A stretch of 64,000 nt of DNA, taken from Boletus sp. NGJ (Eukaryota > Basidiomycota > Agaricomycetes > Boletales > Boletaceae). Shown here in pieces: positions 17,061 to 47,793 of the stretch. Positions within the stretch are counted from its first letter, which is position 1. Each line of letters starts with the position of its first letter. Where the stretch lies: NCBI GenBank assembly GCA_019096195.1, contig JAGTXK010000239.1:992001-1056000 (forward strand), written 5' to 3'. Below the pieces are notes generated by a model, which made no database searches, was not told the DNA's origin, and saw only the letters and a program-made list of their open reading frames with translations. A program made the translations under genes and the position numbers.

Positions 17061-17103
17061 AAGCAAAAGCCCGAGCTGCACAGGCTTTAAATGGACAGCG
17101 CCA

Positions 17104-20100: not shown

Positions 20101-20174
20101 GTACCACGAATGGGTTTCGAAGGAATCTCTTACGGGTTTTGCAGACGAAATTGGGCGTAACCATAAGAGATTGA
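17104..20174 (+). pseudogene. E1 pol region: protease, RT, RNase H, integrase
   Basis: Protease motif LLDSGASHTFID (about 17,437). Reverse transcriptase with VFFIPKKDGKKRMVMDYR and the YIDDVMIF active-site block (about 18,390). RNase H with DKELLAVIRALEEWRHYL and WTDHKNLEYW. Integrase zinc-binding part (HDSPIAGHGGHSKT..CQVCALTKG, about 19,440-19,580) and core (VDFITGLPPS, then DRGPQFVSAF). Typical Ty3/gypsy order with integrase after RNase H. Broken fossil. Confidence 0.92.
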
Positions 20175-20407
20175 AGAAGCGCTGGAAGCTACACGAGAGA
20201 GGATGATCACCTCTTCCGATAAAAAACGATCCTTCGGCACCAGAATATTCTATTGGCCAGCAAGTCTGGCTTTCAACAGATAAATTAAAACTTCCTTATA
20301 CGGCGAAAAAACTCACACAAAAATGGATTGGTCCCTACGTTATCACTAGGGTACTTCCTAACGCCGTAACGCTCAAACTACCTAATTCTGTTCACATCCA
20401 TCCAACT

Positions 20408-20782
20408 GTGAACATTTCTCGCGTCAAACCATATAGAGACACGCTGCCTGGACAGCCTAAATCTCGTCCCGACGCTATAGAAGTCGACGAAGAAGGTGAA
20501 GAGCAGTTTGAAGTTGATTATATCGCCGCTTCCAGGATGAAAAGAGGCAAAATAGAATATTTGGTTCATTGGAAGGGTTATGATGAAACCGATAGAACCT
20601 GGGAATCTGAAGACATTCACGTAACTGCACCGGATGCAGTTCAAGATTTCCATCGTCTTAATCCTTCCGCACCACGCAAGCTTCGTGGTCTATCATTTTC
20701 AGCTTTCGCTTCCTTATTCTCGCCTTATGAAAACTTCACCGAAAACGAAAAAACAACGACTCGCCTGGAATTCGAGTCTTAA
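20408..20782 (+). other. E1 chromodomain region
   Basis: Chromodomain at the integrase tail (IEYLVHWKGYDETDRTWESE, about 20,550-20,610). In this family it is thought to steer integration to heterochromatin, which fits the nested block in which E1 lies. Confidence 0.88.
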
Positions 20783-20793
20783 AGAGGGGGTAG

Positions 20794-21277
20794 TGTAATA
20801 ATATGGGAAATTTTCAAACTTTTCAAACGCTCACTTACTTTTCATCTTCTTCACCTCTTCTTCTTCATAAGTCACGTGACTGTGCACGTGACCGTGGAAA
20901 CATATCACATGATAGGTCTAGAACCTATGACGTCATATGACATCATACCTCATGTGATCCACGACCTTTTAATTTCCGCTCTTCTCACACAGCCCTATTA
21001 ATCTCTGTCTTACCATACGTAGTAATTTATCACACGCACAGCATGGTCCGTGCGCATTTCCCTCATGTATATAAACTAGCACTTTGACGACTGGTATCCC
21101 CAGTCTAATCCACTTGTATCTTCCTCCAACAACCTATTAGCTTCGGCCATCGGTCGTCGTAGGGTTGGGAATATCCAGGACTAAGACTCTCCCACCTGAT
21201 TCGTTCAGCCAGGACTCGTGTAGCCTGCAAAGCATTTCCGAGCCTTGTGGTTTGTTTTCCGAAAGGGATTCATAACA
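20794..21277 (+). repeat. E1 3' LTR
   Basis: 484 bases, partner of 14843-15325, preceded by the polypurine tract AAAGAGGGGGTAG. Followed directly by the target duplication CCTAT. Confidence 0.93.
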
Positions 21278-26170: not shown

Positions 26171-26178
26171 TCCACATA

Positions 26179-27019
26179 CAGTGGCTTAAAAAAGTGTCCC
26201 AATGTTTGACTATTTTGCAAAGACTTGACATTTGCAAAAGAACCAAAAGGCATTAGCCCTAACCCTTGCTGGGCCATTGATAGCCCTAATCCTTGCCCTG
26301 AAGATGAGCCCTTAGTCATGTGAGTTGGTTTTCATGGTACTGAGTTATAGCCATATTAAAAGGATATGTCATTGGGACACTTATTTGACCCTGATATTAT
26401 CAACTATTATTTAGTAAATAACATAAGGTTCTGATGGATGCTGTGCTTCAACCCTGTCTGATTATGTCACTTACATAACTCCAAATGGTATAAAGAGCAG
26501 AGATACCATTCAGCCAACCCTACTTCATTATGAAATCCACTCCCTCCTCTGCTAGAGCCAATATTCTTTTTCTCTCTGAATCTGGCCTTTCTACTAGGCA
26601 AATATCATTCCAAACTGGTCTGGGGAAGTCTACTGTGGCCAGGGTTATCAAGGAGATCCACCCAGGCAAGGAAAACATCAAATTAGGATGTCCTTCTAAA
26701 CTTTCTCCTACTAATAAAAGGTGAATTGTCTCTAGTATTACCTCTGGCAAAGTTGAAAATGCTGTCCAGGCTACCCATCTCATCAATTCTGCTCTCTCTT
26801 CTCCTATCTCTGCTCAAACTGTTAGGAATGTTCTCAAGTCTGCATCTCTCAAGGCTGTAGTCAAGAAAAAGAAGCCACTCTTGTCTGTGAAGCATAGGCA
26901 ACATAGGCTAGCCGTTGCTCTCAAGCACCAACATTGGACTGTGGAGGACTGGACTAGGGTTATATGGTCAGATGAAACCAAGATCAACAGAATTGGGTCA
27001 GATGGAAGGAAGTATGTGT
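26179..27019 (+). mobile_element. Tc1/mariner element 2, left part only
   Basis: The left terminal repeat begins CAGTGGCTTAAAAAAGTGTC after TA (26177-26178) and sits inside the KDZ remnant. The element runs into its transposase and stops abruptly at 27,019, where minus-strand retrotransposon E2 begins. No right end with the matching inverted repeat was found elsewhere in the window. Confidence 0.8.
26530..27019 (+). pseudogene. Tc1/mariner transposase, N-terminal half
   Basis: Helix-turn-helix part LSTRQISFQTGLGKSTVARV, GCPSKLSPTNKR, then after a stop SGKVENAVQATHLINSALSS, KKKKPLLSVKHRQHRLAVAL and the first catalytic aspartate in RVIWSDETKINRIGSDGRKY. The second and third acidic residues are absent because the gene is cut at 27,019. 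Same family as element 1 but only moderately similar to it. Confidence 0.82.
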
Positions 27020-30000
27020 GAACTTCTCGATCGCCTATGGGGCGTTTGAGATGTTTTTCTTTGGTTCCCAGGTGCGTTCCTCGCGGGAGTACCCTTTCCA
27101 CTGTACTAGGTACTCCGTCTTACCGCGTCGCTTACGTGAGTCGGCAACGTGTTTGATGTCATACTCTTCTTGTTGCTGGACGATAACTGGGGGCAGCGGT
27201 TTCGGTTTCATCTGGGAGGGGGATGTGCTGGGGTGATAGGGTGTAAGGAGTGATTCGTGGAAGATGGGGTGGATTCCTTTCCACGTCTTTGGGAGGTCGA
27301 GCTCATAGGAGGTCTTGCCTACTTTTCACTTCACTCTGAATGGCCCATGTTATTTGTTGTTGAATTTCTTTGTTGGTTGGTTGGTCTGGATGTGAGTTTC
27401 TTCGAGTAAGACCTGTTGACCAGTGGTGTATTCGACGGCAGGGGAGGCACGCTTGTCGTGTGACTTTTTCATCGCCTGTGCCGCTTTCTCCAGTGCATCC
27501 TTTGCCAAGTTGTGATGTGTCTTCATTGTTTCGGTGAAGGAGGTGGTGGACTCGTTTCGTGCTGGGTATGAGTGATTGCTGCCTGTAGTTGAGCAGGAAG
27601 GGCAAGACGCCTGTGGCGCTGGTTGTCTGGGAGTTATGGGTGAATTCAGCTAGTGGTAGCCACTCTGCCCAGTCGGTCTGGTGATGGTTAACATAGATGC
27701 ACAGGTACTTTTCAACCTCTCAGTTGACGCGCTCCATTTGGTCATCGGTCTGGGGGTGGTAGGCCATGGACGGGTTGGCTTTGATGCCAAGGAGGGAGTA
27801 GAGGTCGTGCATGAATGACAACATGAATTGGGTTCCCCTGTCTGAGATCATCTTGTGGGGGACGCCATGGAGTTTGAATATTTGGTCACAGAAGACTGTT
27901 GCGACTTCTTGTGATGTAATGGTGTCCATCATGGGCATGAGGTGAATCATTTTGGAGAATCGGTCAATGACAACCAAGATAGCATTCTTGCCATTGGATT
28001 GGGGGAGGGGGCCGATCAGATCTACAGAGATGATTTCCCATGGGGATGATGGGATCTTATTTGGGTGGAGCAGTGTGTGGATTGCTGAGGTTTTGGCTTT
28101 AACCTTCTGGCATGTGTCACAGCCTTTTACGTATGACTCCATGTCTCTATGTAGTGATGGTCAATAATACTCGCTCATGACTAGGTCATGCGTTTGCCGG
28201 ATGCCAGGGTGGCTGGCGATCAGGTGGTCATGGTTAGCAATGAGGATGTCCTCTTGAAGTTTTGCGTCGTTTGACACGTATACGAGCGACTTCCAGTGGA
28301 CAAGTCCTTCTTTGCAGGTCCAGGGTGAGCCCTCCTTTTCTAGGCTGTCTTTGGCAAACTGCTCTAGTTTGTACTGCATCTTGGTGATTCTGGAAAGCAT
28401 GCTTGCCGGCATGATGGCCTTGAGGGAGACCATGGTGGAGGTTGGTGATGGGGGAGGTGAAAAAAGTGTGTTGGGGAGTAGTGTCTGTGTGGTGTTGTCA
28501 GATGTCACCCCCTTTTCGAAGTCTGGCCTCCGGGACAGAGGATCCGCTGGGTTGGTTTTGCCAGGATGGTGGCTGATGACTACGTGATATTCTTGTAGGA
28601 TTTGTTGCCACCTGGCCTGGCGATGGGTAAGGTCTTGAGGTCGGCGGAAGAACTTGAGGTTCTTATGATCCGTCCAGATCTCGATTGGGTGGGCAGCCTT
28701 GAGGAGGTATTGTTGCCACTTGTTAAGAGCGAACATGATGGTGAGCATTTCTAGGTCAGCTGTGTGGTAGTTCCGCTCAACGTCCGTCATTGAGGGAATG
28801 GGAGATGAATGCGATGGGGTGCCATACACCGTCATGTTGTTGAGAGAGGATGGCACCGATACCAATGCCAGAACCATCGGTTTCGATGTGGTAGGGGTCA
28901 TCGTGTCAGCATGGCGAGTGCTGGGATGGAGGAGATGGTGTCTTTGAGGGTTTGGAAGGCCTCTTGGTAAGCCGCTGTCCACTCGAAGTCTTTCTTCACC
29001 AATGTGAGCACGTTTAGGGGGTGTGCGATCGTGGCAAAGTTCTTTATGAACTGTCGGTAGAAGTTGAGGAATCCGAGGAAACCTCTTAGTGTCTTCTTCA
29101 ATGTGGGGGTTGGCCAGCTTTTGATGGCTTCCACCTTTTTGTCATCCATCTTTACCTTGTCTTGTGCGACAATGAGGCCAAAGAACTCGGTTTCTTGGAC
29201 TTCGAAGTCGCACTTGTCGTGACGTAGGCAGAGGTGGGCGTCCCTCAGGATTTGTAGCATTTCGCATACTACCCTTCAGTGTTCTTCGAGCGTCTTCGTG
29301 AATATCATGATATCGTCTGTATAGACAACCACTACGCCTCGGTCCACCAAATTCTTGAACAGCGCATTCATTATGGTTTGAAACATCGCTGGGGAGTTGG
29401 TGAGCCCAAAGAACATCACGAGCGGCTCAAATAGACTGCGGTTTGTTCGGAAGGCTGCCTTTCATTCGTCTCCTTCGGCCATCCACATGTTGTTGTAACC
29501 CCATCTCATGTCGAACTTGGTGTAGTACTTGGCCGACTTGAGCTTGTCAACCAGTTCATTGATGAGTAGGAGGGGGTATCGGTTTCTTTTTGTTACCACA
29601 TTTAGCTTGTGGTAGTCTTGTACAGGGTGGAGGCGTCCATCTTTCTTTTTGATGAAGAAGAACGCCAATGCAAAGGGGGATTTGGAGGGTCATATCCTTC
29701 CAGATTTGAGGTTTTCCCCGAGGAAGGTGTCAAGTTCTTTTTGTTCACTGGGATTTAGTGGGTAGACTTTACAGTCTACTTCATGGTTTCCTGGGAGGAG
29801 TTCGATGACGTGATCCCAAGGATGTCTTGGGGGTAGTGCATCGAAACTTTCCTTGTCGAAGATGTCCTTGAACTCATGGGTGTACTTCAGGGTGGCTTCC
29901 TCAAAGGTTTTCTTTTTCTTTTGGGCATAGTCTTTAATGGCTACCTCTGTGGCAACATTTTGATTTCACATGTATCCTACTACATCGAGCTCGAATAGTC

Positions 30001-33000
30001 GGTCGCCTTGTGAGGGCATGTAGTCTACATCCACTTTGTCCTCCTCCTTGTCTACATTGTTTGTGATGTGATCTCCCTTACAGTGGAAGGAGATCCTGCC
30101 CGTCTTCCAGTTGATGGCTGGGTTATGCGTCTTCAGCCAGTCATGTCTGAGAAATATCATGTTGGGCCCGAGATTTGTCACAGCAAGGGCCAACTGTTCC
30201 TTGTGGTCATGGACTTGGAGTTCGAGTATCACGAACTTTTCTACTTTGCCTCCGGCATTCGGCATGCCATCAGCATTATACATGGTGAGGGGATGGGGGA
30301 GTGAGTGAGTGGGTACCCCCTTTTCAGCCACGAACTTTTCGTGTATGGATGATCCGGTGCAACCCGAGTCGATCAGTGCCTTGACTTTGGCAGTCTGACG
30401 ATCTGCGAGGATTACTCTGACGGGGATCTCCAACGAGTTTCGTTTGGTTGATTGGGGGGAGGCTTTCTGGAACTTAGGGGCATGTTGTAGATCATGAAGG
30501 ACCCAGTATGCGTCTTCGTTGGAAAGCCATCGGAGGTCCTGTACGAGGTCCTGAGACACTTCGATCGTCCTGGTGTCATGGACAAAGGACCTAAGGTGGT
30601 GGATGCTTCGTTCTACATCCATGTTTTCCACCTGGGCCTTCATCCAACGTATGGACCAAGGGTCCAACGTGTTTAACCAAGAACAAGAGGATGTCTCTTC
30701 CTTTCATACTTCTTTGGGGTGTTTGTGGGGTATCGTGTTGGCGTTGTTCGGCCCATTGTCTCATTTCACAGACGGTGCGAACTTTACCTTTCACAGCATG
30801 ATGGTTACGTTTTCAACTGGTGGGGTGCCAGGGAGATTCACACAGTTTTCAGTTTCAGTCTCATCAATGCTCAGAATCACAAATTTATTGTTTGGCAATG
30901 ACTTAAGGGGTACAGTAGGTCGACTGGTATCTACTGTACAGGCTGAAAACCCAAATCGTTCATTACATTGGAGGCGTATTCTACAGGCTCCTCCTGAGGA
31001 GCTTCCGCCGAGTTCATCATGGCCCTAATGGCTGCAAACATGTCCAGGGACACTTCCTGTCCATTTACAGTGATGCTTCTCACCTGCGGGTGAGGGCAGG
31101 GGGGTGGTCTGCACAGAGCCACAGTTTTCTGCACTTTCGGTATAAACTGGCCGCACATGCTTTATCGAGCTCCATAGGAGTGCCTTGTCTGGGGAATGTC
31201 CCGGTTTGCTGAGGATGCGGGTGCACAGCAGGCACTGAGGGGGGAGGAGTGGTTGTTGGTAGGGCGTAGCAGGGGTGAGGTACGAATCGCGGGTTGTAGG
31301 TGGGGCCAGTCATGTAGATGGAGGTGGCTTTCTTGTGCTCTGCAATGGCACCAAGCACTTCCTCTGCCCGTACAAGGGCCTGTTCCCACTCACAAATGTT
31401 GGTTGAGTTGATGAGATCAGATTTGTATCTCTCAATGTACTCCACCAGGTCATTCCACACCTGGTGGCATATCTGATTGACAATCATGCATCCATTGATC
31501 CGCACGTCAAATTTGGCCTCAATTGCTAATTGGTATAGCTGGGTAAAGTAGTCCTCAACAGCGTCCTTCCCCTGTCAGAGGGAAAAGAGCTTCTGTTTGG
31601 CTTGCCTGGCGAGGCTGGTGGGTTGGAATGTTTTCTTCAACTTGTTGGTGAAGAATTCGAAACTCACGAGGGAGTAAGCATTGCCCTCAGAGAGTAGGTT
31701 GGAGAAACAGCCAGCCGCGTTCTCACCACGCATGTACGAGAGTGTGATGAGGATTTTTTGGTGGTCGGTTGGCTCTGTCTCAAAGCCACTTAGGTAGAGG
31801 GTCATCGTGTGCCACCATTGCATGAACTTTTCCTTGTTCCCATTGTAGTGTTCTGGTTTAGAGGCCAGACTCTTCCCAATTCGGGGGAAAGTGGGAGGGA
31901 ATCCACGAGCTGGCACCCTTGGGTGCCCAGGTGAATTCGGGTGGAATGAGGGCAACAGCAGGGATGGCAGAGGACGGGAAGGAGGAGGGCCCGGCTGTGG
32001 GACTCGGGGTGTTCTGGTGGGGGATGGAATGTTGACCCAAATGAAGCTTAGAGAGGAGGGGTCCACATGAGGAACCTTGATGGGGGGCGGTGGTCCAGCT
32101 GCTTCTGGGTCTGCCGCGAACTGCTGGTGCCAGATGTTGTATTGGAGCACCAACTGGTGCAAATTGTATTGTGCCACCTCGTGCTGCAGGTGGGCAGCTA
32201 CCAGGAGGTATAGGGCTGGTTGGGCCAGTTGGAGGGTGGGGAGGCCCTGAGCTGCTGCCCCCTGGGTGAGATCCATGAAGCTCCCTGGAGCGGGGGGAGC
32301 AGCAGAGATGGGGCAGCTGTATGGAGTTGGGACAGTCGTCATCATGGCAAAGTCCAGCGAGTTGGGCGAGACGGGTGATTGTATGTGCACACCGGATAAG
32401 CATCAGCGAGTAGGTGGTAAGGGTGGTGTGGACGACTAGGCTATACTCACGGTGAGCCCAGATGTAACGGCGGTGGAAAACTTGGTACGAGCGGGTCTGC
32501 TCAGGAGGCAGCTTGAAAAAGAAAATGGCAGGAAAGACCGTGCACTGTCAAAAAGTGGAAGAGTCGAAAAGTGGGGGAACTGGAGGATAACTTCCTTACT
32601 ACAGGAAGGTGCTACACAGAGGGAAGGTGAGATAAACCCCCTTGTCGTAGCTATGTGATGTCATGGGTGATCATGTGAACCTGAGCACACTATTGTAGTG
32701 CCAACGTACGCTTGGGTTGACAACCACCCAAGAAGCGGGGCTAGTGCTCTATGCCTGATAGCAATGTTATCCTTATTTAGAATGCCAGATGAGCGTATAG
32801 ACAAGCACCTTGATGAGTGCTTTACTTGAGTGTGTCACGAGCACCAATGGATTCCTCTAAGCCTGAGGTCCGGCAAAGGGTGAGCAGCAGTGAAGAGCCC
32901 ATGTGCTCAGAAGTGAAGGGGGGAGAAACAGTGACTGGTACCTCCTTGTCTTCTCCTGCAGTCGAGGATAATCTTGCGCTAGCCACCACCTAGTAGGCTG

Positions 33001-33529
33001 GAATTATGCTTATTGCTAACGAGAGTCCTCGGTTCCTCTGAGGATGGATGCGGGGAGGGTCTGAGTCGGAAATGGGAGTGGTACTAGCGGGCAAAAAGTT
33101 TGCACCAACTAGGTGAAAGCGAGTAGGGAGAGAGGGCTAGAAGTGTCCAGAGGCGAAGAGCCTGGGGACGAGGTAGTAGCTTTGAAATTTGAAAGGGAAA
33201 GAGCCTTAATATCTCAAGGGGCGCTAAGTGCACTATCCAAGAGAGAGAAAAGGAATTCCAAAGCTACTGAATACAGATGTTGCTATGCTACTTATATACC
33301 ACCTACGGTTTCTTGGTTCAGGGCTGGCATGGAAACTACTAGAATGTTCCATATGACGTATGGTGACGTAGTGGAGTCCAGACTGTTCTATGGGTATAGG
33401 GTTGTGACATAGTCTGACTACTGTGTGATGTATGATCTAGACATAGGGTCTAGGTATGAGGTAACTACGTAAGTGTTTGTGGGATCGCTAAGTCTTAGCT
33501 AGCTACATTAAGCTTAGGTAAAAATGTCA
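27020..33529 (-). mobile_element. Ty3/gypsy chromodomain LTR retrotransposon E2
   Basis: LTR fossil on the minus strand. From right to left: leader-like DNA (about 32,830-32,440), gag (about 32,390-31,080), protease (DSGCTGSSIH, near 30,350), reverse transcriptase (about 29,700-29,300), RNase H (WTDHKNLKFFRRPQD, near 28,660), integrase (CDTCQKVKAKTS; VDLIGPLPQS; about 28,140-27,720) and a chromodomain (WKGYSREERTWEP, near 27,070). It is the same lineage as E3 (shared SGCTGSSIH, NLGPNMIF, HDWLK). Its right end (33,529) lies inside the IS630-like transposase and its left end touches Tc1/mariner element 2. I could recognise no LTR at the left and only an uncertain one at the right (about 32,830-33,529). 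Broken, roughly ten interruptions; older than E1. Confidence 0.85.
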
Positions 33530-33715
33530 TGGTTGTTTCACAGACCCTTTGAAGATATCCAGTGCAATTATTCCATCAATAGACAATGCTGGCAAGATGA
33601 AGAATCACTCCCCATGAATGAATGTGTCATGTTGCACACAAAATTGTCTGAGTTGGGACCATCCATTTGTCTGCTGGTTCATATGATCATCTACACTTGA
33701 CTCGTCAATCCAAAC
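33530..33715 (-). pseudogene. IS630-like transposase, third piece
   Basis: Minus-strand reading gives WIDESSVDDHMNQQTNGWSQ, then FCVQHDTFIHG, a stop, and FFILPALSIDGIIALDIFKG. This continues the transposase whose earlier pieces are 45522-45865 and 38431-38562. WxDExxxDD is the first catalytic block of the Tc1/mariner/IS630 group found in basidiomycetes. The rest of the protein, with the other two acidic residues, is lost at the border with E2. Confidence 0.8.
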
Positions 33716-34061
33716 TATTATGAACTGATTAAGGCATCACACCACAAGACTTGAACTGCTCGCAGGCTACACGTGTCCTGGCTCAATGGATGAGGTGGGG
33801 AGTCATTGTCCGAACTATTCCTAACCCTACAATGACCAGAGTAGTCAAGGCAATGAGTTATTGGAGGAAGAGAACAAGTGGATTAGACTGGGGATTCCAG
33901 TCGTCAAAGTGCCACTTTATATATGTACAGGATTGATGCACAGACTAAGCTGTGCATGTGATAAATTACTATGTATAGTAAGACGGAGATTAAAGAGGCT
34001 GTGTGAGAAGAGTGGAAATTAAGAAGTCATGGATCACATGAGGTATGATGTCATTTGACAT

Positions 34062-37000
34062 TAGTGATGTGCTGGGCCCAGCCTGGCCCCAAAGCCCTGG
34101 CTCCAGCTCAGCTTTCAAGGGCTCAGGCTTGGAAAAATTGAAGCCTGAGCCCCTATTGATGGCTTGCTAGGGCCCAGGGCCCAGCCTGGCCTAAGCCCCG
34201 GCTTTATTTGTGTCAGAGTTTAAATTCAACATATGATAGCAATATGAGTGACACGGGAAAACTACTTTAAAATCAATATATTAACATCACTATCATCCAC
34301 CTCAAGAACCACCTCTTCATTAGTATCCTGAGACACAGCTATATCTTCATTACCATACTCTGACAACACTGAGGAATCCTGTAATTCATGGAACAACAAG
34401 TCCTGTCGGATAAGGGATTTGAGGCATTGAAGTGCTTCGATAATATTAGCATTGAGTTGATTCCATCATTTGGTGATAGTGATAGCAGACAATGAGAATG
34501 CCCGTTCACTGGATACTGAAGTAGCCATGATTGAGAGGTAATCACGAGCTAAAGAGCCCCACACAGGATACCTGGCTGTATTGAGACCCCACCACTGTAT
34601 GATCGACATACCTGGGGCTAGTTGATCCTTCGAGTTCAGGTATCCATGAAATTCTTGCAGCCAAGGTTGTTCATGATCAGCATGCATTGAAGGTATGTCA
34701 TTGTCTTCATCTTTATCTTTGTTGTTCGACAGCTCATGTAACAATCGACTAATTTTGCCATATGCCACCGTTGTCTGAAGGAGCTTGACTGGCTTGGTGA
34801 CAATGGCACCATTCAGTTCCAGGTATCGTTCCTTGTACTATAGTGAATCAGCAAAGAGGAATATGTATATACTCACAACAATATTGGATAGTAACATACC
34901 AGCTTCTCCACATGTTTCATTGCGTTGTCATACATATGTACTCCCCAATACTTGTGTATATGATTGGACTTTTGGATGGGATTGAGCACTATAAACCATT
35001 AGCAAACTGCAGTGTAACTCATTACCATGGTAATATACACATCACCATAATATATGCATCCGAATCTGCCATCTTCTCATAGTAGTTTGTGACCTTGTTG
35101 ACCCCAGCCTCAAGTGCCAGCCAGATGTCTAAGTATTCTGCCTTTAAGCTTCGTGTGTATCATGCCTTGTGCAAGGATTTAAGAGCTGGGAGGGCAAGAT
35201 GAGTGGGTGGGCCACTGTTGGAGGTGAAAGACTGTTGTGTATATTCAGCCTTTGTGAGCAAATGCAGTAGCTGCGAGACATGGTCCCACTCTGCATCCAT
35301 TAGTTGGAGATCCTGGAGTTTTTGACACTTCTCTCAATTCCTCTCAGCTCCAGCCATTTCATGCACAAATATATCAACATTGTCTCTGAGCTTTTCAGCA
35401 CAGTTAAGCATCAGGTATGACAATGACCATCCGACTAGCATGTCAAGAAAGAGTTGAAGAGGGCGTTGTTGGGGCAGATGGTTTGGGCCATCTCATTGTT
35501 GAATCGTCTGAAACAGTTGCTTGCATTTGGTGGATGAGCGCTCCTGAGTAATGTTCTCAGTAATGTTCTTAAAGAGTCCCTGATAACATTGAATGTCACC
35601 TACCTTGACACAAATGGAACAGATCACCCCTACTTCATCATGCTGGGCCCTGTGCTCCACAATTAATTCTACCTCAGGATTCTTGGGGTCGTATTCCTGG
35701 GATTAACTATGAATGTGCAGTAGTGCTTGTGTTGCTAAATTAACAATGTGGGCAAGGCAACTTCATATATATATTAGCAATGCTTGAACAGAATGATACA
35801 CTGTATCAACACCTACTGAACTCGTCTTTTTTTGGTGTTCCACTTCTTGCCTGTCATCTGCTTGATTTGTATTGCGAACTTGCTTGCCATCGTGTCCATA
35901 TTGCTAGCATTATCACAAGTAAGATGGCCGATCTGTGATATCAAGTTAGTTTTAGTAGTCTGAATGTCAAGGTTTAAACCTTACCTTATGTGAGATCCCA
36001 AGGTGCTGGATGACCTTGTATAGGGCCTGTTCCAATTGAAACCCATTATGTGCATTGTTCATCTGTACGAAGCTGAGAAGTGCAGTTTTGAGCTCCCACA
36101 CACCTGGTGAGGCTTCCTACATCCATGACCCAGTGACCGTGAAGTAAGCATTGGTGTTCGAAGCTTGCCATGCATCACATGTTAAGTTTATGTGGCCTTT
36201 GACAGTGTCACTCTACAAACGACTTAAATACATTATATGGTTAACACATGGAATTCTTACTTACCAATAGTTGTGACTGTAGTTTTACCATATGCTCTCT
36301 GAACATGTTGATTATGAGCGTATGAGTATACTTACGACTTGGGATCTTAACACTGTTGGTCATCGCTAGCGCTGCAATGTTAATCATTTTCCTGAAAGAG
36401 GGATGCTCAAGAGCAGATATTGGCTGGCAAAGAATGAGCTTGATAGATAGGTCTAGATTCTACTTTGGATTACCTGATCTGTATCTACCAGCCATTCCAC
36501 AGTGGCAGCACGAAAGCGCTCATTGCTGTATTTTAGTGGGGTTGGCTAGAGATGACCATCAAGTTAACTTTGCCGAGTGCTTTGTGTCTTGTCTTTCTGC
36601 ATCGTTTGGTCCTTTGGAAGCATAGACATGAAACCATTTTCTTCCACCCATTTTAAATACTCGGCCTTTTGTTGAACATTAGCACACAATGAACAGATCA
36701 TAAGATGGTAGTACATACCCAATGGCAGGATTGCAAATGCCGCTGCAGTGTTGATATCTCAGCAACGAGAGGTTTCCTATGGATCCAGGATATCACCATT
36801 TATTAGTATTATATGCAGTTAAAGAAATGGACAATACAGTACGAGCAGCACTTGCAGTTCCAATACTTCTTGCCATCGCTGTCATGGACAACAGGCTCGT
36901 CGAAAAATTGGTCAACATCACAGCCTCGTTGCTCTCGACGAACCTTTTGAGGCTCATCAATATCCATGACTTGGATATCTGCTTGTCCATTGGGTAATGA

Positions 37001-37712
37001 GATCGACAAACCTATTGAATGTTAGAGGGTTAGCCTATTGGAGTTCTATGTGCCATGTACTTACCATTATTGTCAGCACTGGTTGATGTTGCTACACGTT
37101 TCACTACAATGTGTTACTTTGGTCAGTGAGGCAATGAATTTGAGAATAGTGCAAGTGTACCTTTGCCAATGGGCCCGAATGGTGGTGTTTCCTCATCATC
37201 TGTGTCAGGATTGTCAGCCCTTTTGCACTTTCAGCCCAGAGAAGTTGAAGGAAAAGATGGCGGGGGAGAGTCATCAGTGTGGGAGGGCAACTCAGGCAAC
37301 TCATGGGGCATACTGTCAAACTCATGGGGCACACTGCCTCCAGCCCCCAATGGGCCTAATTTGGGTGCCTGGTGTGAGCGAAGCTCAGGTGTGGCCACAT
37401 TGTCAGCATCTCTGAGCCTGGCCAATGGAACAGTTGCCCGTTTGGGTTGAGCAGCTATGTTGTCACTGGTGGCAGCATTCATTTCAGTGGTAGTACGTAT
37501 ACAAGGCGAGTTGGTTTCACAGTTCACACCAAATAAAGTTTACAAATATTACTAATCAGGCCCCAGCCATAGGCTCTGGCCCAGGGCTTGCTAAAACTGA
37601 AGCCTGAGCCCTAAGCCCCATTAGACCCCTGCCCAGGGCCTGGCTTAGCTCAGCCTGAGAAGGTAAAGTCTAGGGCTTCAGAGGGCCCAAAGCTGGGCCC
37701 GGCACATCACTA
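34062..37712 (-). mobile_element. hAT DNA transposon, 3.65 kb
   Basis: Terminal inverted repeats TAGTGATGTGCTGGGCCCAGC (left, 34062) and its inverse with one change at the right end (37692-37712). A perfect 8-base target duplication TTTGACAT flanks it (34054-34061 and 37713-37720), the hallmark of hAT elements. Sub-terminal regions are rich in GGGCCCAGGCC-like repeats in both orientations (34070-34200 and 37560-37700). It carries a minus-strand transposase with introns and a BED finger. Both ends are intact, so it was mobile until fairly recently. Confidence 0.93.
34260..37530 (-). pseudogene. hAT transposase with BED zinc finger
   Basis: Minus-strand gene in several pieces. An N-terminal Pro/Ser-rich piece lies near 37,530-37,190 (RATVPLARLRDADN). 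A BED-type finger is near 36,900-36,740 (DGKKYWNCKCCS..TLQRHLQSCH). Middle exons at 36,600-34,800 are weakly read. The C-terminal dimerisation block is near 34,660-34,400: MSIIQWWGLNTARYPVWGSL, ARDYLSIMATSVSSERAFS, then ALQCLKSLIRQDLL. The stop TAG/TGA pattern inside the last block (after AITITK) suggests decay, and many middle segments have stops on reading straight through, some of which will be introns. Function: excision and insertion of the element. Confidence 0.8.
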
Positions 37713-37730
37713 TTTGACATCATAGATTCT

Positions 37731-38300
37731 TGTCATATCCTGTGTAATTCGACAAGTCCAACTCCGGTACTCTGTCCATAACTCCGGCGTATTCTCCCTT
37801 GGAATATGTCCTCATACCCTTGGACTTGTAATACCCTCACTATAGTATTCATACTTCTCCTTTCATATATAATCTATGCTTCTTCATCCATCCTAGTCCT
37901 GCCTTATAGTTGTCTCTGACCCAGTGTCTGTCTCGCTTAGGAGCACTGCTCTGGCAAGGTCCCATCTCTGTCCCATTACCCATTACACCTTATGAACTCC
38001 ATTACTAATACCTTCATTCCGATTGTATATAAACCCTCTGTACTACTCCTGTAAAGTCAGTTCGAATATCAACTCTGAACACTCCTCCTGTCTCCTGTCC
38101 GAGTCTTGACAACTCACTCTGACCCTCTGCTCGACTTGATGTTTGACTATGTTGAGTCCAAACCTCTGATCCTCCTACGTCTTCGAAATCCGGGACATTG
38201 GACTCGAGCAAGGGCACACCACATAAGATGAAGCCAAGTCCCAACACCCTCAAGTAACTCTGGTCCTTCGGAGTTTCATCAGAATTGTCCATTCTTAACA
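37731..38300 (+). repeat. Solo LTR (570 bases)
   Basis: Starts TGTCATATCCTGTG and ends CATTCTTAACA, flanked by a perfect 5-base target duplication ATTCT (37726-37730 and 38301-38305). A TATA-like TGTATATAAACCC near 38,023 suggests plus orientation. It lies inside the E1-family solo LTR. Its family is not otherwise represented in the window. Confidence 0.88.
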
Positions 38301-38430
38301 ATTCTAGACCATATCATGTGATTGTTCCCATGGTCACATGCACAGTCATGTGACTTGATGAAAAAAGGAGTTGAAGAAATAAAAAATAAGTGTCTCTTCA
38401 AAAAGTTTGAAAATATTTAATATCATAACA

Positions 38431-38562
38431 CAAATAAAGCATTTCATCAAAATGTCCCCATATTCAGCTTGCCAAATTGTGTGAAGCAGCTCATTTCTCT
38501 CAGCTGCTGTCTTGCAAAACTTTTTGTGAGTAAGTTGGAGGCAATGAATTGCATGAGATAGG
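38431..38562 (-). pseudogene. IS630-like transposase, middle piece
   Basis: Reads VTLSHAIHCLQLTHKKF, then KTAAERNELLHTIWQAEYGD, continuing the frame of 45522-45865 and followed on the far side of the solo LTR by the piece at 33530-33715. The T.S.AI..L.LTHKK block is typical of the region between the DNA-binding and catalytic parts. Confidence 0.82.
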
Positions 38563-38567
38563 GTTAC

Positions 38568-38885
38568 TGAAATGACTTTCTCCTTTTCTCTCTTTTTATT
38601 CTCAAATCAGCCCCTGAATGACAGCCTGACTGACACTCACAATTACCCTAGGTAGAGAATGCGTCTGGACCTGTGACCAGACTACGTACATCATGGAAAC
38701 TGCCTAGAACATTACGTAATCCTTCTAGCACATTCCACACTGGCCCTATAGTCAGTCTGTGCGCCCCCCCTATGTATATAAAGAAGTACACTTTGTAGTA
38801 GTTATGCATCTTTGGAATTGTCCTTCTACGCTGCAAATATCATCTCTAGGGGTGACTCATAGTGTTGTGGGCCTTTTTCCTTTCA
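38568..38885 (+). repeat. E3 5' LTR
   Basis: 318 bases, TG..CA, with TATA-like CCTATGTATATAAAG about 120 bases before its end. Differences from the 3' LTR are nearly all transitions, most of them at CG/TG/CA sites. Confidence 0.92.
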
Positions 38886-40075
38886 AATTCCAAAGATAAT
38901 CCTTGACCACCAGGCACTTTGCCCCCTGGTCGTATTCCCTCCCCAGTTACCACCTCACCGCTGCACTTTGCAGGCGTGCTTGCCCTCTCTTCATTGCCTA
39001 CTCCTCCCCGCATCCATTCTCAGAAGAACCACAACCCCCTGTTAGCATTAAGCGTAACACCCAGCCTTTTGGTGGTTGCTAGCACAGAAGCACATTGCGA
39101 CTGCAGGAGAAGATAAGGAGGCTTAGGTCCCCTTAGATAAAGAAACTCTTACACATCGTGTATCTCCCACTTCCTTTGTTTTCACAGTGCCTCCACCATT
39201 GGCAATCATACTTGCCCATGTTACACACGTAGCTGGTTGTTGGTGATCATACTTACCCATGTCACACACACCCCTACCCCATCATTCCACATAATTCCAG
39301 GCATGCTGCCAAGCACCACCAGGTCACATCCATCCCCCGTCATCACTCGTTGCCGGCCGCTCCTGGCACGAGTTTCCTTGGCATATCACCACCATGCCCT
39401 ATCCCTGCCATCCGCGCCTTAATCTCTTTCATCACTTGCTTCAGCGACTTTGGAACCCCAACCACCTACTTGTTGAGTTACTCACTGTCCTCCTCCACCA
39501 CCTCAACGACCAGTACCAACAATGAGTTATTTCAACTCCCCTTCTCAGACCCCCACCCCATCCTGCCAGAGTACCTTCGGAGAAATGGCGGCAGCCCTGG
39601 AAGGAATCAGGGTTGATACTACCCCTACTCCCGCCCCGTCCATCGAATCACTGACACCAATATCCGCCTTAACATGCTAATATATGATGAGAGTGACAAC
39701 CTTTATATAAACTGCACAACTATGAATGACTGTCTGCAGTACTGATCCTGAGCTGACAAAAGGCTGAAGGGACATACAACAGCAAGGGGCATCCTCCAAC
39801 CCCCGATTCCCCTGGGCCTCGTCCCCACTATGCCCACAAACCCCTTGCTGCACCAGAGGCACAATGTCCCACCCATGGACCCTGTTGGGACATGGTTCAC
39901 CATGTTCAATGCATGACAAAAAATCTATGCCTGAGCAGGATCGGTGGCTGGCCCGCCACCACCACCACCTGCTAGCCTTGTGTCATAAGCCATCCCCCCA
40001 CAAACGACACCACCTTGATGGCTGCTCCTGTCGATCCCATCATCTCCTCCATCCCCCGGAACCCCCCACACCTCA
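38886..40075 (+). other. E3 leader and gag-upstream region
   Basis: No family signal in straight reading; Pro/Ser/Thr-rich short frames. By position and by comparison with E2 (gag starts MHIQSPVSPNS) it holds the leader and the start of gag. Confidence 0.5.
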
Positions 40076-41050
40076 GTGCGAGGATTCCCTAATATCTCCC
40101 CGAAGCTGGGAAAATCTCTCGCCGCTAAACCAGAGTACTACAACGGTGACAAGAAAAAGTTCGTCTCATGGTGGAGGACCATGAGACTATACCTGTTGGG
40201 TTTCAAAACTACCCTGCAGGACTATCAAAAGATCCTGATCGTCCTCTCGTACCTCCGCGAAAGCAACTCCACGGGACAATTTGGTGACCTTATGACGGCA
40301 CAAGGAGCTGTCCATATCCTCACCTTCACAAGCTTTGAGGAGAAGCTCAAGAAGAACTTCCAACCCACCAATCTCAAGCGGGTGGCACAGCAAAAACTAA
40401 TGGCCCTTAAGCAAGGCAAAGACATGGTGAAGGATTACTTCACCAAGCTGTACCACTACACAGAGGAAGCAGAATTAAATATCAGGTACAACGGGTGAGT
40501 GATGGTGGATTTGGTACGATAAGCCATTCATTCGGACGTGGTTGAGTTTGTCAAAAGGAACCAGCCCCACCTGATCAAGTCCACCGACGTCCACTCCTGG
40601 GAGAAGGCCCTGGTCAGAGCTGTGGACATTCTGGCTGAAATCACAGATCAAAAACAGTCGGTCTACACGACAGGCCCAACATACTCCCCAAGGTTCGTCC
40701 TTCAGCCCAAATACACTCCTCCCACTGGTCCCCCTCCTGCTGTGGCCGCTCCCATAGCAAAACCACACCCAAACATGACTGGAATGTTCCCTGGTCAAGG
40801 AGCACCCATGGAGTTGGACAAAATGCATGCAGCAGGGATCTGCTGCAAATGTTCAAAATCATGGCCATGCGCTGAACACCCACCCCGCCCTCGCCCTCGA
40901 CAGGCGAGAAGTATTATGATAAACGGGCAGGAGATAAACCCAGAGATGTTCTCACAATTACACACCATGATGACAGACGCTGAACGAGCCCCCAATGTAA
41001 AATATTCCCCTGATGTAACAGAAGACTCATCTTTTCTCCCTGTACAGTAG
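40076..41050 (+). pseudogene. E3 gag region
   Basis: Gag of the E2/E3 lineage: PEYYNGDKKKFVSWWRTMRL, then LMALKQGKDMVKDYFTKLYH, and a C-terminal CCKCSKSWPCAEHP cluster that stands where other elements have a CCHC knuckle. The matching E2 piece has PEHYNGNKEKFMQWWHTMTL. Fossil. Confidence 0.85.
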
Positions 41051-41349
41051 ACAGCAGTCGACCTACTATACAAAGTAATAAGTTGCAGAATAACTGATTT
41101 TCCATTTTGTGTGACAACGAGACTGATGACAAGGAGGAACAGGTGAACCTCCCAAAAAAGAAAGTCACACCAACAACGGAGGTTCTGGCGAGCCCCCAGA
41201 CAATGAAAATCGCCAAGCGTCCTAAGGAAGAGCGAAAGGTGGTGTTCCACCCATTGGTGAAAAAGGACAACGGTCCAAATGACGCGAGTACAATACCTTG
41301 CAAACGAACAGAAAAGAGAGAACCTGAATGAAAGGAAGAGATGTCCTCT

Positions 41350-44300
41350 CGTCCTTGGTTAAACACAATGGACCCCTGGTCCATACGTTGGATAAAGGCA
41401 CAGGTGGAAAACCCAGAGGTCGAGCGGACCATTAGACACCTGAAGTCCTTTGTCCACGAAACCAAGACAATCGAAGTGTCTTGGGACCTCATTCAGGAAC
41501 TCTGAGAGATGACAATGGAAGACACGTACTGGATACTGCATGACCTGCAAAACCCCCCCCATTTAGAAAAGCATCCCCATGCACAACAAAAAAAAATTCA
41601 CTTGAGATCCCCATAAAACTCAGTACCTCAAGTGGAGAACAGGTTGAAGTCAAAGCACTCATCGACTCAGGGTGCACAGGATCATCCATTCACGAAGACT
41701 TCATTGCTGAAAAGGGGGTGCAAACACACTCATTACCCCGCATGCTCACTGTATACAATGCCGGAGGCAAGATTGAAAAATTTGTCATCGTTAAATTATG
41801 GATCCAGGACCACAAAGAACAGATCACCCTAGCAGTAACCAACCTGGGGCCCAACATGATCTTCCTCAGTCACGACTGGCTGAAACTCCATAACCCAGCC
41901 ATTGACTGGAAAACCAGAAGAATCTCCTTCTGATACAGGAATGACCATACTACCACATCAGTGGATGACGAAGACAATGAACCGGACAAGGACTTTGCCC
42001 CTTCTAAGGGAGACTGGCTATTCCAACTGGACGCCGACAAATATCTACAGAACATCGCCACAGAAGTAGCCATCAAAGACTATGCCCAAAAAAAGAAGAC
42101 CTTTGAGGAAGCGGCCCTTGCGTACGTCCACAAATTCAAGGATGTATTCACGAAGAAAAGTTTGGATGTGCTCCCACCAAGACACCCTTGGGACCACGCA
42201 ATTGAGCTTCTCCCTGGAAACCATGAGGTGGATTGCAAGATCTACCCTCTAAACTCAGGAGAACAAAAGGAACTCGACACATTCCTCAAAGAAAACCTCA
42301 AATCCGGGTGCATATGACCGTCCAAATCCCTATTCGCCTCCGCATTCTTCTTCATCAAAAAGAAGGATGGACGCCTCCACCCCATACAAGATTACTGAAA
42401 ACTCAACACAGTGACCCGTCGTAATCAATACCCCCTCCCCCTCATCACCAAACTCATCAATAAACTAAAAATGGCAAAATACTACACCAAGTTCGATGTA
42501 TAATGGGGTTACAACAACGTATGGATGGCAGAAGGCGACGAGTGGAAGGCAGCATTCTGAACGAACCACGGGCTTTTTGAACCTCTCGTGATGTTCTTCA
42601 GTCTTACCAACTCCCCAGCGACGTTCCAAACTATGATGAACGTGCTGTTCAAAGACCTAGTAGACCAAGGTATAGTGGTAGTGTATATCGACAACATCAT
42701 GATATTCACAAGAACCATTGAGGAGCACTGTAGAGTAGTACGAGAAGTACTACAAATATTAAGAGACACCCATCTTTACCTCAGACACGACAAGTGCGAC
42801 TTCAAGGTCCAGGAAACTGAGTTCCTCGGCCTCATCATCATGTAAGACAAAGTGAAAATGGACGCCAAGAAGGTCTCCACCATCGCCAACTGGCCAGTCC
42901 CAACCTCCAAGAAGACACTCCAAGGTTTCCTCAGATTCCTCAACTTTTACCAATGTTTTGTCAAAAACTTTGCCATGATCACATGCCCCCTCAATGCACT
43001 CATGTCAGTGAAGAAAGAGTTCACCTGGTCCAAGGACTGCCAAACAGCCTTCGAAGACCTCAAGGCAACAATCACGAGCACCCCCACTCTCGCTATGCCA
43101 ATGGATACCAACCCTTACCAGGTCGAAACCGACGGCTCAGGCATCGGCATAGGCACCGTGCTCTCCCAGAAGCATGATGGGCTTTGGCATTGCCTTCATC
43201 TCAAGGTCCCTAAACAACGCGGAACAAAACTACCACATGGCCAACTTGGAAATGCTGGCCATCATCTACGCCCTCAATGAATGGTGCCAGTATCTCCTCG
43301 ATGCCACACACCCCGTGGAGGTCCTCACTAACCACAAAAACCTCCAATTCTTCCACCGCCCTCAGGACCTCTCCCGCTGTCAAGCCCGGTGGCAGCAGAT
43401 AATCCAGGAATATTCCTTGGTTATCACTCACCGCTCAGGCAAGACTAACCCCACTGACCCTCTGTCCTGGAGGCCAGATTTTGAAAAGGGGGTGGAACTC
43501 AATAACACTGCTCAGACCCTCCTCCCGGACACCCTTTTTGCCCCTCCCTCATCACCAATATCCATCAGCACAGTCACCCCACCTTCCATTCTCTCGAAAA
43601 TCATGAAGTTGCAATACAAACTCAAGAGATTCACGAAAGAGGGCCTCACTAAGGAAAACACCAACTGGGTGAAGAAAGACGGACTTATGACATGGAAAGG
43701 ACTTGTCTACGTCCCAAATGACGAGAAACTACGAGAAGATATCATCGTAGTTAACCACAACCACCCAATCACAGGACACCCCGGCGTGAAACGAACATGC
43801 AACCTAATCATGAGCAAGTACTACTGGCCATTGCTTCACAAGGACATTGAGAAATATGTCAAAGGCTGCGACATCTGCCAGAAAGTAAAAGCCAAAACAA
43901 CCCCACTCCATACCCCCCTCCATCCCAACAAAATCCCATCCTTGCCATAGAAGATCATCTCTGTTGAACTCATTGGCCCACTCCCCCAATCACAGGGAAA
44001 GAACGCAATACTGGTCATCGTCAACCGCTTTTCCAAAATGATACACCTCACGCCAGTGATGAATACGATCACATCCCAAGGGGTTGCAACCATATTCTGC
44101 AACCAAATCTTCAAACTTCATGGCACCCCCCACAAAGTCATCTCTGATCGAGGGACACAATTCATATCCTCCTTCATGAAAGACCTTTACATGCTACTCA
44201 ATATCAAGGCCAACCCGTCCACTGCATATCACCCCCAGATAGACGGACAGACAGAACAGATGAACCATGAGATCGAAAAGTACCTACGGGTGTACATAAA

Positions 44301-44950
44301 TCATCATCAGACTGACTGGGTGGAATGGCTTCCGCTTGCAGAGTTTGCGCATAATTCACATATGACAAGTGCCACTGGAGTGTCCCCCTTCCTGCTCAAT
44401 TATGGGCAACAACCTCTTCTCCCAGACAGGCGAGTCGAAGTGAGAAACGAGTCGGCCTTGGAATTCACAGAAAAAATGAGAAAACACCACAAAGTGGCTA
44501 AACCCACACTGGAAAAGGTGGCAGAGATGATGAAAAGGAGCCATGACAGACGTGCTGCCCCATCGACGAACTACACAAGCGGTCAGCAGGTCCTTCTCAA
44601 AGGAACCAACATCCAAACAGACTGACCCACAAAGAAGTTCAACGATAAGCATTATGGCCCCTTCAAGGTAAAACACAAGGTAGAGGAAGCGTCACATAAG
44701 TTAGACCTCCCCAAGACATGGCATGGAGTTCACCCAGTATTCCATGAATCCCTCCTCACCCCCTACCATAAGGAAATGGCCAAATCACAGGCAAAACCAA
44801 AACCACCACTGCCGGTGATCATCAGCCAAGAGGAGGAACACGAAGTGCAGGAGGTCGTTGACTCAAGGAAACGCCAAGGAAAAACAGAATACCTCGTCCA
44901 CTGGAAGGGCTACCCACACGAGGAGCAAACTTGGAAATCCAAGAAAAATG
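41350..44950 (+). pseudogene. E3 pol region: protease, RT, RNase H, integrase, chromodomain
   Basis: Protease block ALIDSGCTGSSIHEDFIAEK and NLGPNMIFLSHDWLK; reverse transcriptase block with YIDNIMIF; RNase H with NLEMLAIIYALNEWCQYL; integrase zinc part (HPGVKRTCNLIMSKYYWP..CDICQKVKAKTT) and core (DRGTQFISSFMKDLY); chromodomain near 44,890. Broken fossil, same order as E1 and E2. Confidence 0.9.
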
Positions 44951-45203
44951 TCGCCAACGCTCTGTGACTGGTGGAAAAGTTCCACATCACCAACCCTTCC
45001 ACCGTACGATCCCTTGCCATGGTATGCGACTGTCCTCTCTGCACAAACCAAACGACCCTCCTCAACGATGCTACCTTCTGCTCCTATGCCGCCTCACTCA
45101 ACCACCTCCCCAATAGCCTTTTTAAGATACCCTTACCCAACTCACAACCACTCATTCCCAGTGTACTGGTCAACCAGGAGGTCAACCCTTAAAAAGGGGG
45201 TAA

Positions 45204-45521
45204 TGAAACAACTTTCTCCTTTTCTCTCTTTTTATTCTCGAATCAGCCCCTGAATGACAGCCTGACTGACACTCACGATTACCCTAGGTAGAGATTGCAT
45301 CTGGACCTGTGACCAGACTACATACATCATGGAAACTGCCTAGAACATTACATAATCCTTCTAGCACATTCCACACTGGCCCTACAGTCAGTCTGTGCAC
45401 CCCCCCTATGTATATAAAGAAGTATGCTTTGTAGTAGTTATGCATCTTTGGAATTGTCCTTCTATGCTGCAAATATCATCTCTAGGGGTGACTCATAGTG
45501 TTGTGGGCCTTTTTCCTTTCA
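45204..45521 (+). repeat. E3 3' LTR
   Basis: Partner of 38568-38885. The purine-rich AAAAAGGGGGTAA directly before it is the polypurine tract. Followed by GTTGC and then the transposase into which E3 was inserted. Confidence 0.92.
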
Positions 45522-45865
45522 GTTGCGATAGATACTTCAATGTTCTGGACATCTAATAGCTGCTGTTGGATCTCGTCAAGATAGAGAGTGGGATTTGCAT
45601 CAAGAATAGATGAAATATATGCAATGTTGCCATGCTGCAGAACTCGAGGGCGTCCCTGACCATGCTGGAATGGTTCCATGACTTGTCCAAAGTTCCGGTG
45701 TAGCCTAAGAATATCATACACAGTGCACTCAGAGCAGCCAGCCAGCTCTGCTATCTCCCGAGCAGACTTTCTGCCTTCATAGCGCCAGACAACGATTCGG
45801 TTTCGAAGCTGTAGGTCAAGGTGAGGTGCCATTGTAAGCGGAGCGGTCGACGTTTCAACGATCAA
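45522..45865 (-). pseudogene. IS630-like (Tc1/mariner superfamily) transposase, N-terminal piece
   Basis: The likely start MAPHLDLQLRNRIVVWRYE is at 45,832. A helix-turn-helix follows (SAREIAELAGCSECTVYDIL), then GRPRVLQHGNIAYI, LDANPTLYLDEIQQQLLDVQ and NIEVSIAT, where E3 cuts in. The frame is open over about 100 codons. The continuation is found beyond E3 (38431-38562) and beyond a solo LTR (33530-33715). It binds the transposon ends in its family. Its start lies about 190 bases from the start of TIM50, on the other strand. Confidence 0.88.
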
Positions 45866-45904
45866 GTCTCGGTCACACGCGGCTCAGAAGTTTTATTATT
45901 TTTA

Positions 45905-45975
45905 ATATGACATTTGCATCCTAATTTGGATATTTCTGGATATAAAAACAAAGCCAAATATGTCGGATGCAAATC
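45905..45975. promoter_or_regulatory. Inverted ATTTGCATCC pair upstream of TIM50
   Basis: ATTTGCATCC (about 45911-45920) and its exact inverse GGATGCAAAT (about 45964-45973) face each other 43 bases apart, with a further AATTTGG/CCAAAT match inside. It lies 50-115 bases before the TIM50 start. It could be a regulatory palindrome or the remains of a transposon end. Confidence 0.4.
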
Positions 45976-46024
45976 GGCCACTGCAGTTTCTTATGCAACA
46001 CTCTGTAACCTCAAGTGCCTTTCG

Positions 46025-47793
46025 ATGTTTTCTGTCTTTTTGCGGGGAGCCGTTCGAACACACACGTTCGCACCGCGGTCGGTGCGCTATCTTGCATCCA
46101 AAGTGCCACCCAAGGCACCGTCGCCCGCGCAGCCACCGCCCCCGCCAGCAGCGTCAACGACTTCCGCTCTCCCCAGCCTCGACTTCGACCCTGCTCAACG
46201 CCCGGAACAGACAGAAAGGACGGAACGCACAGGCGCAAAGTCTTCCAAAGATTCGCTTTCTTCCATAGAGCGACGCCGGAGGTACTTGGGAAGAGTCTCG
46301 CTCGGTGTCTTGGCCATTGCCCTTGGTGTGCAAGTACTCTATCTCGGGCGAGATTGGGAGGCAGATGAACTTGCAAACAAGAAAATCGTATGGTTTTGAT
46401 TAGTTTTATCCCTGCCGTGATTATGATGTGTCTTCTTGGCTGGTTTTGATAGAGGATCGAAGATGCACCTTCAGGTCGGTGGACCCGGACCAAGACACGA
46501 TTCACGGACATGTTCGACGTATGTCCCTCTGGATGATATTTTGTGTGGGGTCTGTACTTACGTCTATTCGTAGTACTTCAACAAGCCAGCATGGACAGAA
46601 CTGCTTCCTCCACCACTTCCGAGTCCCCACCAAAAACCTTACACCCTTCTGGTATCTATGGATGACCTATTAATAACCTCCACCTGGGATGTAAGTCCCC
46701 AACACTGCAATTCCATGAACGACAACATGACTTGTTCCACAGCGACAAAAAGGTTGGCGGACAGCCAAGCGTCCAGGTGTTGATTATTTCCTTGCGTATC
46801 TATCTCAGTTTTATGAAATTGTTATATTTACTACGCAAAATCACTACGTGCGTTTATTCGCTCTATTACACGCGGGGCCACCGCTAACTGTCTGTGTGGT
46901 TCATAGACCGCCATCCCTGTAATTGAGAAACTGGATCCGTATAATTTCTTCATCACCTACAAGCTTTTCCGCGACGCGACGCGCTCCGTGGATGGAAAGG
47001 TTGTTAAAGTGAGTTCGCTCGCGTTGCACCCTACCCAGGTCTGAATTTGTTGTGTTGTTCGCACAAGGATCTCTCTTACCTCAACCGCGACCTTTCGAAA
47101 GTCATCCTGCTCGATGCTCACGAGGAGCATACCTCGACACATCCTGAAAATTCGATCGTGCTTCCTAAATGGACAGGTACTCCTGGTGACAAGGGTCTCG
47201 TTGCTATGATCCCCTTCCTCGAGAGTATGTTTCCCGTTTTCCCCATGCTGGCGCGCCATTCTCATGTTCATCTCCCCAGCGATCGGCATTTACAAACCCC
47301 AGGATGTCCGCCCGATCCTTCAGGCTTACCAGGGCAAAGACATTCCAATTGAGTATGCAAAGAATGAAACTGAGGCGCGTGAACGCCACATCGCTGAGTG
47401 GAAGAGCAAATCCAGAGGTCTTTCCTCTGGAGAATTTACCATGAGCTCCTTGTTTGGTGTGAACCCCGATGTAGGCATCTCGAATCCCTGCCCTCCTGTC
47501 TCTGCGTTGATTCCTCCCGCTCGCTACAGTCCTCCCATTCGCCCATCCCGCCAACGTACCTCGAACAAAAGCGCGCAGAGGCACAGCGTCAGTACAAAGA
47601 AGAACAGGCCTACATTGCAGCTCACAAAGGCGAGTTTGACAAGGTGTTGGACGAGGAGAGACAAGCAATGGCTAAAGAGATGTCTGGGTCGCTGCTCGGC
47701 CTTCTTGACAATGTGGCGGGCAAGAAGCCACAGGCTACGGAGGACTCCAACAAGATCACTGCGGGCGGCGGGGGAGCACAGGTGAAGCACTAG
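46025..47793 (+). CDS. TIM50: TIM50, mitochondrial inner-membrane import receptor
   Basis: Subunit of the TIM23 complex; receives preproteins from the outer membrane and passes them to the import channel. Eight exons join in phase: 46025-46387, 46453-46518, 46574-46690, 46743-46847, 46907-47008, 47068-47224, 47280-47470, 47530-47793 (about 454 residues, normal for fungi). Residues 1-25 ([19 protein letters not shown]) form an Arg-rich presequence, followed by a Pro-rich linker. A single membrane helix lies at about 90-108 ([18 protein letters not shown]). The FCP1-like domain follows, with [40 protein letters not shown] and [19 protein letters not shown]. The phosphatase DxDxT motif is replaced, as in other Tim50 proteins. 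The C-terminal tail is charged, with an Ala/Lys/Glu-rich helix. The start was chosen because it gives the presequence; an in-frame ATG at 45914 would not. First gene after the transposon block. Confidence 0.95.

Follow-up and report, generated by a model that had tools for sequence, protein, structure and literature searches.

The stretch of DNA analysed in this report, referred to as the window, comprises 64,000 nt of the Boletus sp. NGJ assembly GCA_019096195.1 (contig JAGTXK010000239.1, positions 992,001-1,056,000; G000:C89:992001-1056000 in our notation) and carries the remains of an IS630-Tc1-mariner transposon that ends shortly before the start codon of a TIM50 gene. A sequence-only reading of this DNA had claimed that one transposase gene lies here in three pieces, parted by nested insertions. 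These pieces, which we call A, B and C, and the sites around them are given below together with their likeness to a sister copy elsewhere in the assembly (C82) and their position in a related protein of 319 residues (P0180); LTR stands for long terminal repeat and E3 for an LTR element described further on.

45522..46005, minus strand: surviving end of the IS630-Tc1-mariner element, with terminal inverted repeat (CAGAG.. from 46005), leader and transposase piece A
46006..46007, no strand assigned: TA, the expected target dinucleotide, at the outer end of the element
45527-45832, minus strand: piece A, with an ATG at 45832 and codons to 45527
45522-45526: E3 target repeat GTTGC, adjoining piece A
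38563-38567: E3 target repeat GTTAC, adjoining piece B
38431-38562 (with the E3 target repeat, to 38567), minus strand: transposase piece B, 91% to C82, residues 103-146 of P0180
38431-38435: target repeat CAAAT of the outer LTR, at the edge of piece B
33711-33715: target repeat CAAAC of the outer LTR, at the edge of piece C
33541..33715, minus strand: transposase piece C, which includes the first catalytic D (WIDESS), 92% to C82, residues 146-203 of P0180

The main finding of this study is that pieces A, B and C belong to one copy of an IS630-type transposase, which was split by later insertions and nested as first described, a conclusion to which we give a probability of about 0.95. When the window's own assembly (32.78 Mb, 141 contigs) was searched with each transposase piece alone, pieces A and B gave two matches each, namely themselves and C82:229569-229874 at 94% (A) or C82:229880-230011 at 91% (B). 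The query for piece C, window 33470-33720, includes adjoining LTR sequence, and its 20 matches are itself, C82:230008-230185 at 92% and 18 that hit the neighbouring LTR only. In C82, the one sister copy found in the assembly, the places of A, B and C lie on the same strand, adjoining and unsplit. Base by base, C82 corresponds to window 46008-45522 (93% alike), then 38565-38431, then 33714-33537, with 3 and 4 bases common to both sides at the A-B and B-C joins, respectively, as target-site duplications predict. This agreement bears directly on the idea that the three pieces derive from different transposon copies that landed close together. Transposon fragments are frequently clustered in repeat-rich regions, but the sole other copy has A, B and C in the same adjoining, same-strand order, and both joints agree with it to the base and come with target repeats, which leaves separate origins with hardly any credibility.

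Related proteins tell the same story. Searched against proteins at E <= 0.001, the C82 transposase had 172 matches, 120 of them listed, and all twelve listed ones of 300-380 residues were used to place the pieces. Overlapping placements, the pattern that the sequence-only reading had named as telling against a single gene, were not seen: in 12/12 relatives the pieces map in order, with at most one residue shared. One residue separates A from B in all twelve, while at the B-C boundary one residue is shared in 8/12 and B stops 5-7 residues short of C in the other four; in P0240, the alignment reaches only the last 39 residues of piece A. The pieces score at least 88 against every relative, and at most 49 against shuffled versions of the relatives (20 for each piece and relative). 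Together, the pieces cover residues 1-203 of P0180, and the last 116 residues, which hold the second D and the final E, have no counterpart in the window. A search of the window beyond the third insertion, on its left, gave no fourth transposase piece. The far terminal repeat of the window copy is missing from both window and assembly. Assembly-wide, the rest of the C82 element has no match other than itself and terminal repeats.

The gaps between the pieces measure 7.0 kb (A-B) and 4.7 kb (B-C) and are filled by the following elements.

38568..45521, plus strand: E3, an LTR retrotransposon, probably Ty3-like, between A and B, with target repeats GTTAC/GTTGC
33716..38430, minus strand: outer solo LTR of the E1 family between CAAAC and CAAAT, interrupted by a hAT element and an inner LTR
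34062..37712, minus strand: hAT element within the outer LTR, with the 8-bp target repeat TTTGACAT on both sides
37731..38300, no strand assigned: inner solo LTR within the outer LTR, with the 5-bp target repeat ATTCT on both sides

The sequence-only reading had named all four of these elements in the same nesting, with the target repeats of E3 and the outer LTR. E3 has an LTR at each end (38568-38885 and 45204-45521), which differ by 13 substitutions in 318, 12 of them transitions, and it stands in a 5-bp target duplication whose two sides, GTTAC and GTTGC, are one base apart. Two of the three E3 frames scanned are recognizable, one as gag and the other as RNase H followed by an integrase zinc domain, and the third (44038-44622) gave no domain match. 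The outer LTR, which on either side of its inserts is 79-82% alike to the two E1 LTRs, is a single LTR without internal part, has a target repeat at both sides, and its target site occurs once in C82; compared by eye, an E1 LTR elsewhere in the window represents its uninterrupted state. In the hAT element, which has TTTGACAT at both flanks, one of seven frames scanned matches Dimer_Tnp_hAT (E 9.5e-12). These identifications leave next to no room for the view that A, B and C are exons and the gaps introns or intron-like. The C82 copy does have, by eye, seeming GT-AG introns further downstream, but what fills the gaps are LTR and hAT elements flanked by target repeats; C82 lacks an intron at both gap positions, and piece C carries an in-frame stop.

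Several lines of evidence place the split element in the IS630-Tc1-mariner group. A DD35E/IS630 family is named in PMC7386202. Of five proteins scanned with the IS630 model NF033545 (cut-off 100 bits), three pass, all of them relatives of 311-320 residues (3/3 scanned, 156-167 bits), and the shorter relative P0122 stays below the cut-off at 76.9 bits. Piece A also scores below it (28.7 bits, E 8.4e-7) and matches HTH_28 above the Pfam cut-off. Two C82 frames match DDE_3 (cut-off 28.6 bits), one above the cut-off at 32.3 bits and the other below it at 23.2 bits. In the seven listed hits with both motifs, the second D and the third acid are spaced by 35 (6/7) or 34 (1/7). With a length of about 3.6 kb, the C82 element carries terminal inverted repeats of some 75 bp (77 bases in the alignment, flank included, 83% alike) that adjoin TA; TTACAGAG stands at both of its ends and at the one remaining end of the window copy. 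Thus an IS630/DDE_3 transposase, terminal inverted repeats and a TA target duplication are all present, with one end and one side left in the window. The catalytic triad is incomplete in the window copy, which retains only the part with the first D, and the C82 transposase has in-frame stops and a basic residue at the third catalytic position; judged from these sequences, neither copy looks functional, and both appear to be dead members of the family. No solved structure matched P0180 at E 0.001. Beyond its transposase, the C82 copy holds about 2.2 kb (L013 6215-8397), a passenger or an insert, that has no other copies in the assembly; the single 123-aa minus-strand frame scanned for a captured gene had no Pfam match.

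The left side of the locus differs from what had been described. Piece C had been taken to end at 33,530, and the split region to be bounded by 45865; we find that piece C ends at 33541, since 33189-33540 is the LTR of the next element, and that the outer end of the transposon is at 46005. The picture of three pieces of one copy stands, and what had escaped notice is a fourth insertion that cuts piece C and the loss of the last third of the gene. Two features are involved.

27021..33540, minus strand: fourth insertion, a Ty3-like element whose 5' LTR (33189-33540) ends piece C and whose 3' LTR is missing
26177..27020, plus strand: left half of a young Tc1-type element, with TA at 26177-26178, joined at 27020/27021 to the truncated end of the fourth insertion

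The fourth insertion breaks off piece C and is itself truncated on its far side. This element is 82-86% alike to an element on C38 (L019), which has both LTRs (1601-1952 and 7134-7485), and 70% to the coding part of E3. L019 2179-2392 and 2395-7484 match window 27020-27233 and 28445-33540, and about 1.2 kb of the window between these two stretches is absent from the C38 copy and matches E3, which means that the C38 copy has an internal gap. L019 1601-2178, that is, the 3' LTR and the sequence preceding it, has no counterpart in the window left of 27020. Searching the window with the C38 LTR gave a single match, and the 3' LTR of the fourth element was not found. The Tc1 half-copy has 438 candidate places in the assembly; the 40 that were scored are the window copy and 39 others at 98-99%. 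The compared copies reach some 1.6 kb in length and have terminal repeats of roughly 212 bp, and a family so uniform in sequence points to a recent burst. A single deletion that joined the Tc1 copy to the Ty3-like element probably took the rest of the transposase and its far terminal repeat, since one break at 27020/27021 would explain three truncations at once: the Tc1 half, the 3' end of the Ty3-like element and the end of the transposase. That economy is also what speaks against an assembly error at an abundant repeat or a stepwise loss, explanations that we consider less likely but that have points in their favour: the joint sits in a family with 438 candidate places, where assemblies can fail, and we looked for clear shared sequence at 27020/27021 and saw none.

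Some points weigh against our reconstruction as a whole. In both E3 and the outer LTR, the two target repeats are one base apart. The fourth insertion has one side left, and its target repeat cannot be compared. Several events may lie behind what we read as one deletion, or the joint may have arisen during assembly, at an abundant repeat. Finally, with a single sister copy found, most differences between the copies cannot be assigned to a lineage.

The history that we propose begins with an IS630-Tc1-mariner element that landed at a TA a short way upstream of TIM50. Its transposase gene then received three independent insertions, namely E3, an E1-family LTR element and the minus-strand Ty3-like element. 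The E1-family element was afterwards reduced to a solo LTR, into which went the hAT element and another LTR element, the latter also left as a solo LTR. A later deletion, with its ends in the young Tc1 copy and the Ty3-like element, would account for the loss of the last part of the transposase and of the far terminal repeat; it is likely a late event because it cuts the young Tc1 copy. Two parts of this order are firm, the transposon being older than E3, the outer LTR and the fourth element, and the outer LTR older than the hAT element and the inner LTR. The sequence-only reading had offered a firm order with the transposase first, then the LTR and E3, then the hAT element and the last LTR. 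Its steps from transposase to E3 and outer LTR, and from outer LTR to its two inserts, hold, but nesting gives no order of E3 relative to the outer LTR, the hAT element, the inner LTR or the fourth element, since E3 neither lies inside any of these nor contains them. Nor does it order the hAT element and the inner LTR, which lie 18 bp apart inside the outer LTR. Elsewhere in the window, an E1 LTR element at 15001-21000 has a CpG observed/expected ratio of 0.9-1.7, compared with about 0.5 in E3 and the fourth element, and may be the youngest LTR element of the window.

The right-hand neighbour of the transposon is a gene whose start codon lies almost at the transposon's edge.

46025..47793, plus strand: TIM50, with its start codon 17 bp beyond the transposon's TA; PF03031 E 1.1e-36

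TIM50 is a mitochondrial import gene that is essential in yeast. With the transposon ending at 46005 and its TA at 46006-46007, the start codon at 46025 follows directly. The identity of the gene rests on PF03031 and on 1088 relatives, 120 of them listed, and the best named matches among those listed are from Imleria badia (86%), Boletus reticuloceps (85%) and Boletus coccyginus (81%). All aligned relatives (8/8) have the start Met, one of them with a further residue before it. A DNA search of the assembly found no second TIM50 copy; other stretches with the NIF domain occur on four contigs of the assembly. At the opposite end of the window, positions 1-11000 hold tandem gene-like units, spaced 4.0 and 5.2 kb apart, which continue left of the window (L020) and have a gene-like CpG content.

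The position of the surviving transposon end next to TIM50 coincides with an uneven retention of CpG sites. We counted as an inferred CpG any site with CG in either copy (window or C82) or with TG in one and CA in the other. The window copy has kept 10/10 such sites in 45833-46005 and 9/13 in 45527-45832, compared with 0/4 in piece B and 1/6 in piece C (33542-33710). The surviving end thus differs from B and C combined (19/23 vs 1/10, Fisher p 1.6e-4), as does 45527-45832 alone (p 0.0097), and the contrast should be conservative, since sites that decayed alike in both copies are invisible. The CpG observed/expected ratio is 1.24 in 45751-46000, which is all transposon, and 0.94 over TIM50; the next five bins of 250 bp on the left have 0.09-0.60. 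The shift to a gene-like level falls within the transposon, near 45750, rather than at its edge. Because A, B and C are one insertion of equal age, age cannot explain the CpG difference, and nearness to an active promoter can. Perhaps, therefore, the surviving end kept its CpGs by lying in the unmethylated promoter zone of TIM50. A bolder proposal, which we advance tentatively and put somewhat short of an even chance, is that the surviving 0.25-0.5 kb serves as the working promoter and leader of TIM50, that selection together with the unmethylated state kept the CpGs, and that the pile-up of insertions marks the end of this zone near 45750. That promoter may even drive the open helix-turn-helix frame of piece A in the opposite direction; selection on this frame, in which changes are few, is not something that we claim.

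This proposal has weaknesses of its own. The CpG trend inside A is not significant (p 0.10), B and C together offer a small number of sites (10 inferred CpGs), and CpGs close to each other are not independent. The end segment holds one TATAWA motif, which turns up in 12% of random sequences with a similar composition, and between this motif and the TIM50 start codon there are three upstream ATGs. The small numbers, the chance level of the motif and the ATGs also favour chance or base composition as the source of the CpG contrast. We nonetheless think such a source improbable, since equally old sequences kept 19/23 and 1/10 of their inferred CpGs and the change to gene-like CpG falls within the transposon. 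As for the TATAWA motif itself, which is at 45941, we do not claim it as the TIM50 TATA box, given the chance expectation and the upstream ATGs that follow it.

Nesting as such is ordinary for a repeat-rich fungal genome, in which nested transposons are routine. What this locus adds is one insertion with an unsplit sister copy, in which CpG decay can be measured at different distances from a host gene. The locus is hence a natural test, on a small scale, of the depth to which promoter protection extends into a transposon, and of promoter takeover by transposon ends in mushrooms. This locus was not among the listed matches of literature searches on DD35E/Tc1/mariner elements in fungi, nested insertions in Boletaceae and CpG in basidiomycetes; those listed on the first topic concern mostly animal families. 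With the nested transposon clusters of maize, wheat and others, the locus shares the placing of younger elements within older ones, joints marked by target repeats, and solo LTRs, and it does not differ from them in mechanism; here, however, the splitting is proved by a sister copy that stands unsplit in the same assembly. Host genes with promoters derived from transposons are known, and the present case resembles them in that a transposon end occupies the expected place of the TIM50 promoter and leader, a likeness seen in position and CpG retention. Finally, the split element has the TA beside CAG-type ends and the helix-turn-helix and DDE_3 domains of IS630-Tc1-mariner transposons, with DD34-35 spacing among its relatives, and it departs from them in length, the C82 element at about 3.6 kb exceeding the 1.3-2.5 kb that PMC8533490 gives as typical of Tc1/mariner.

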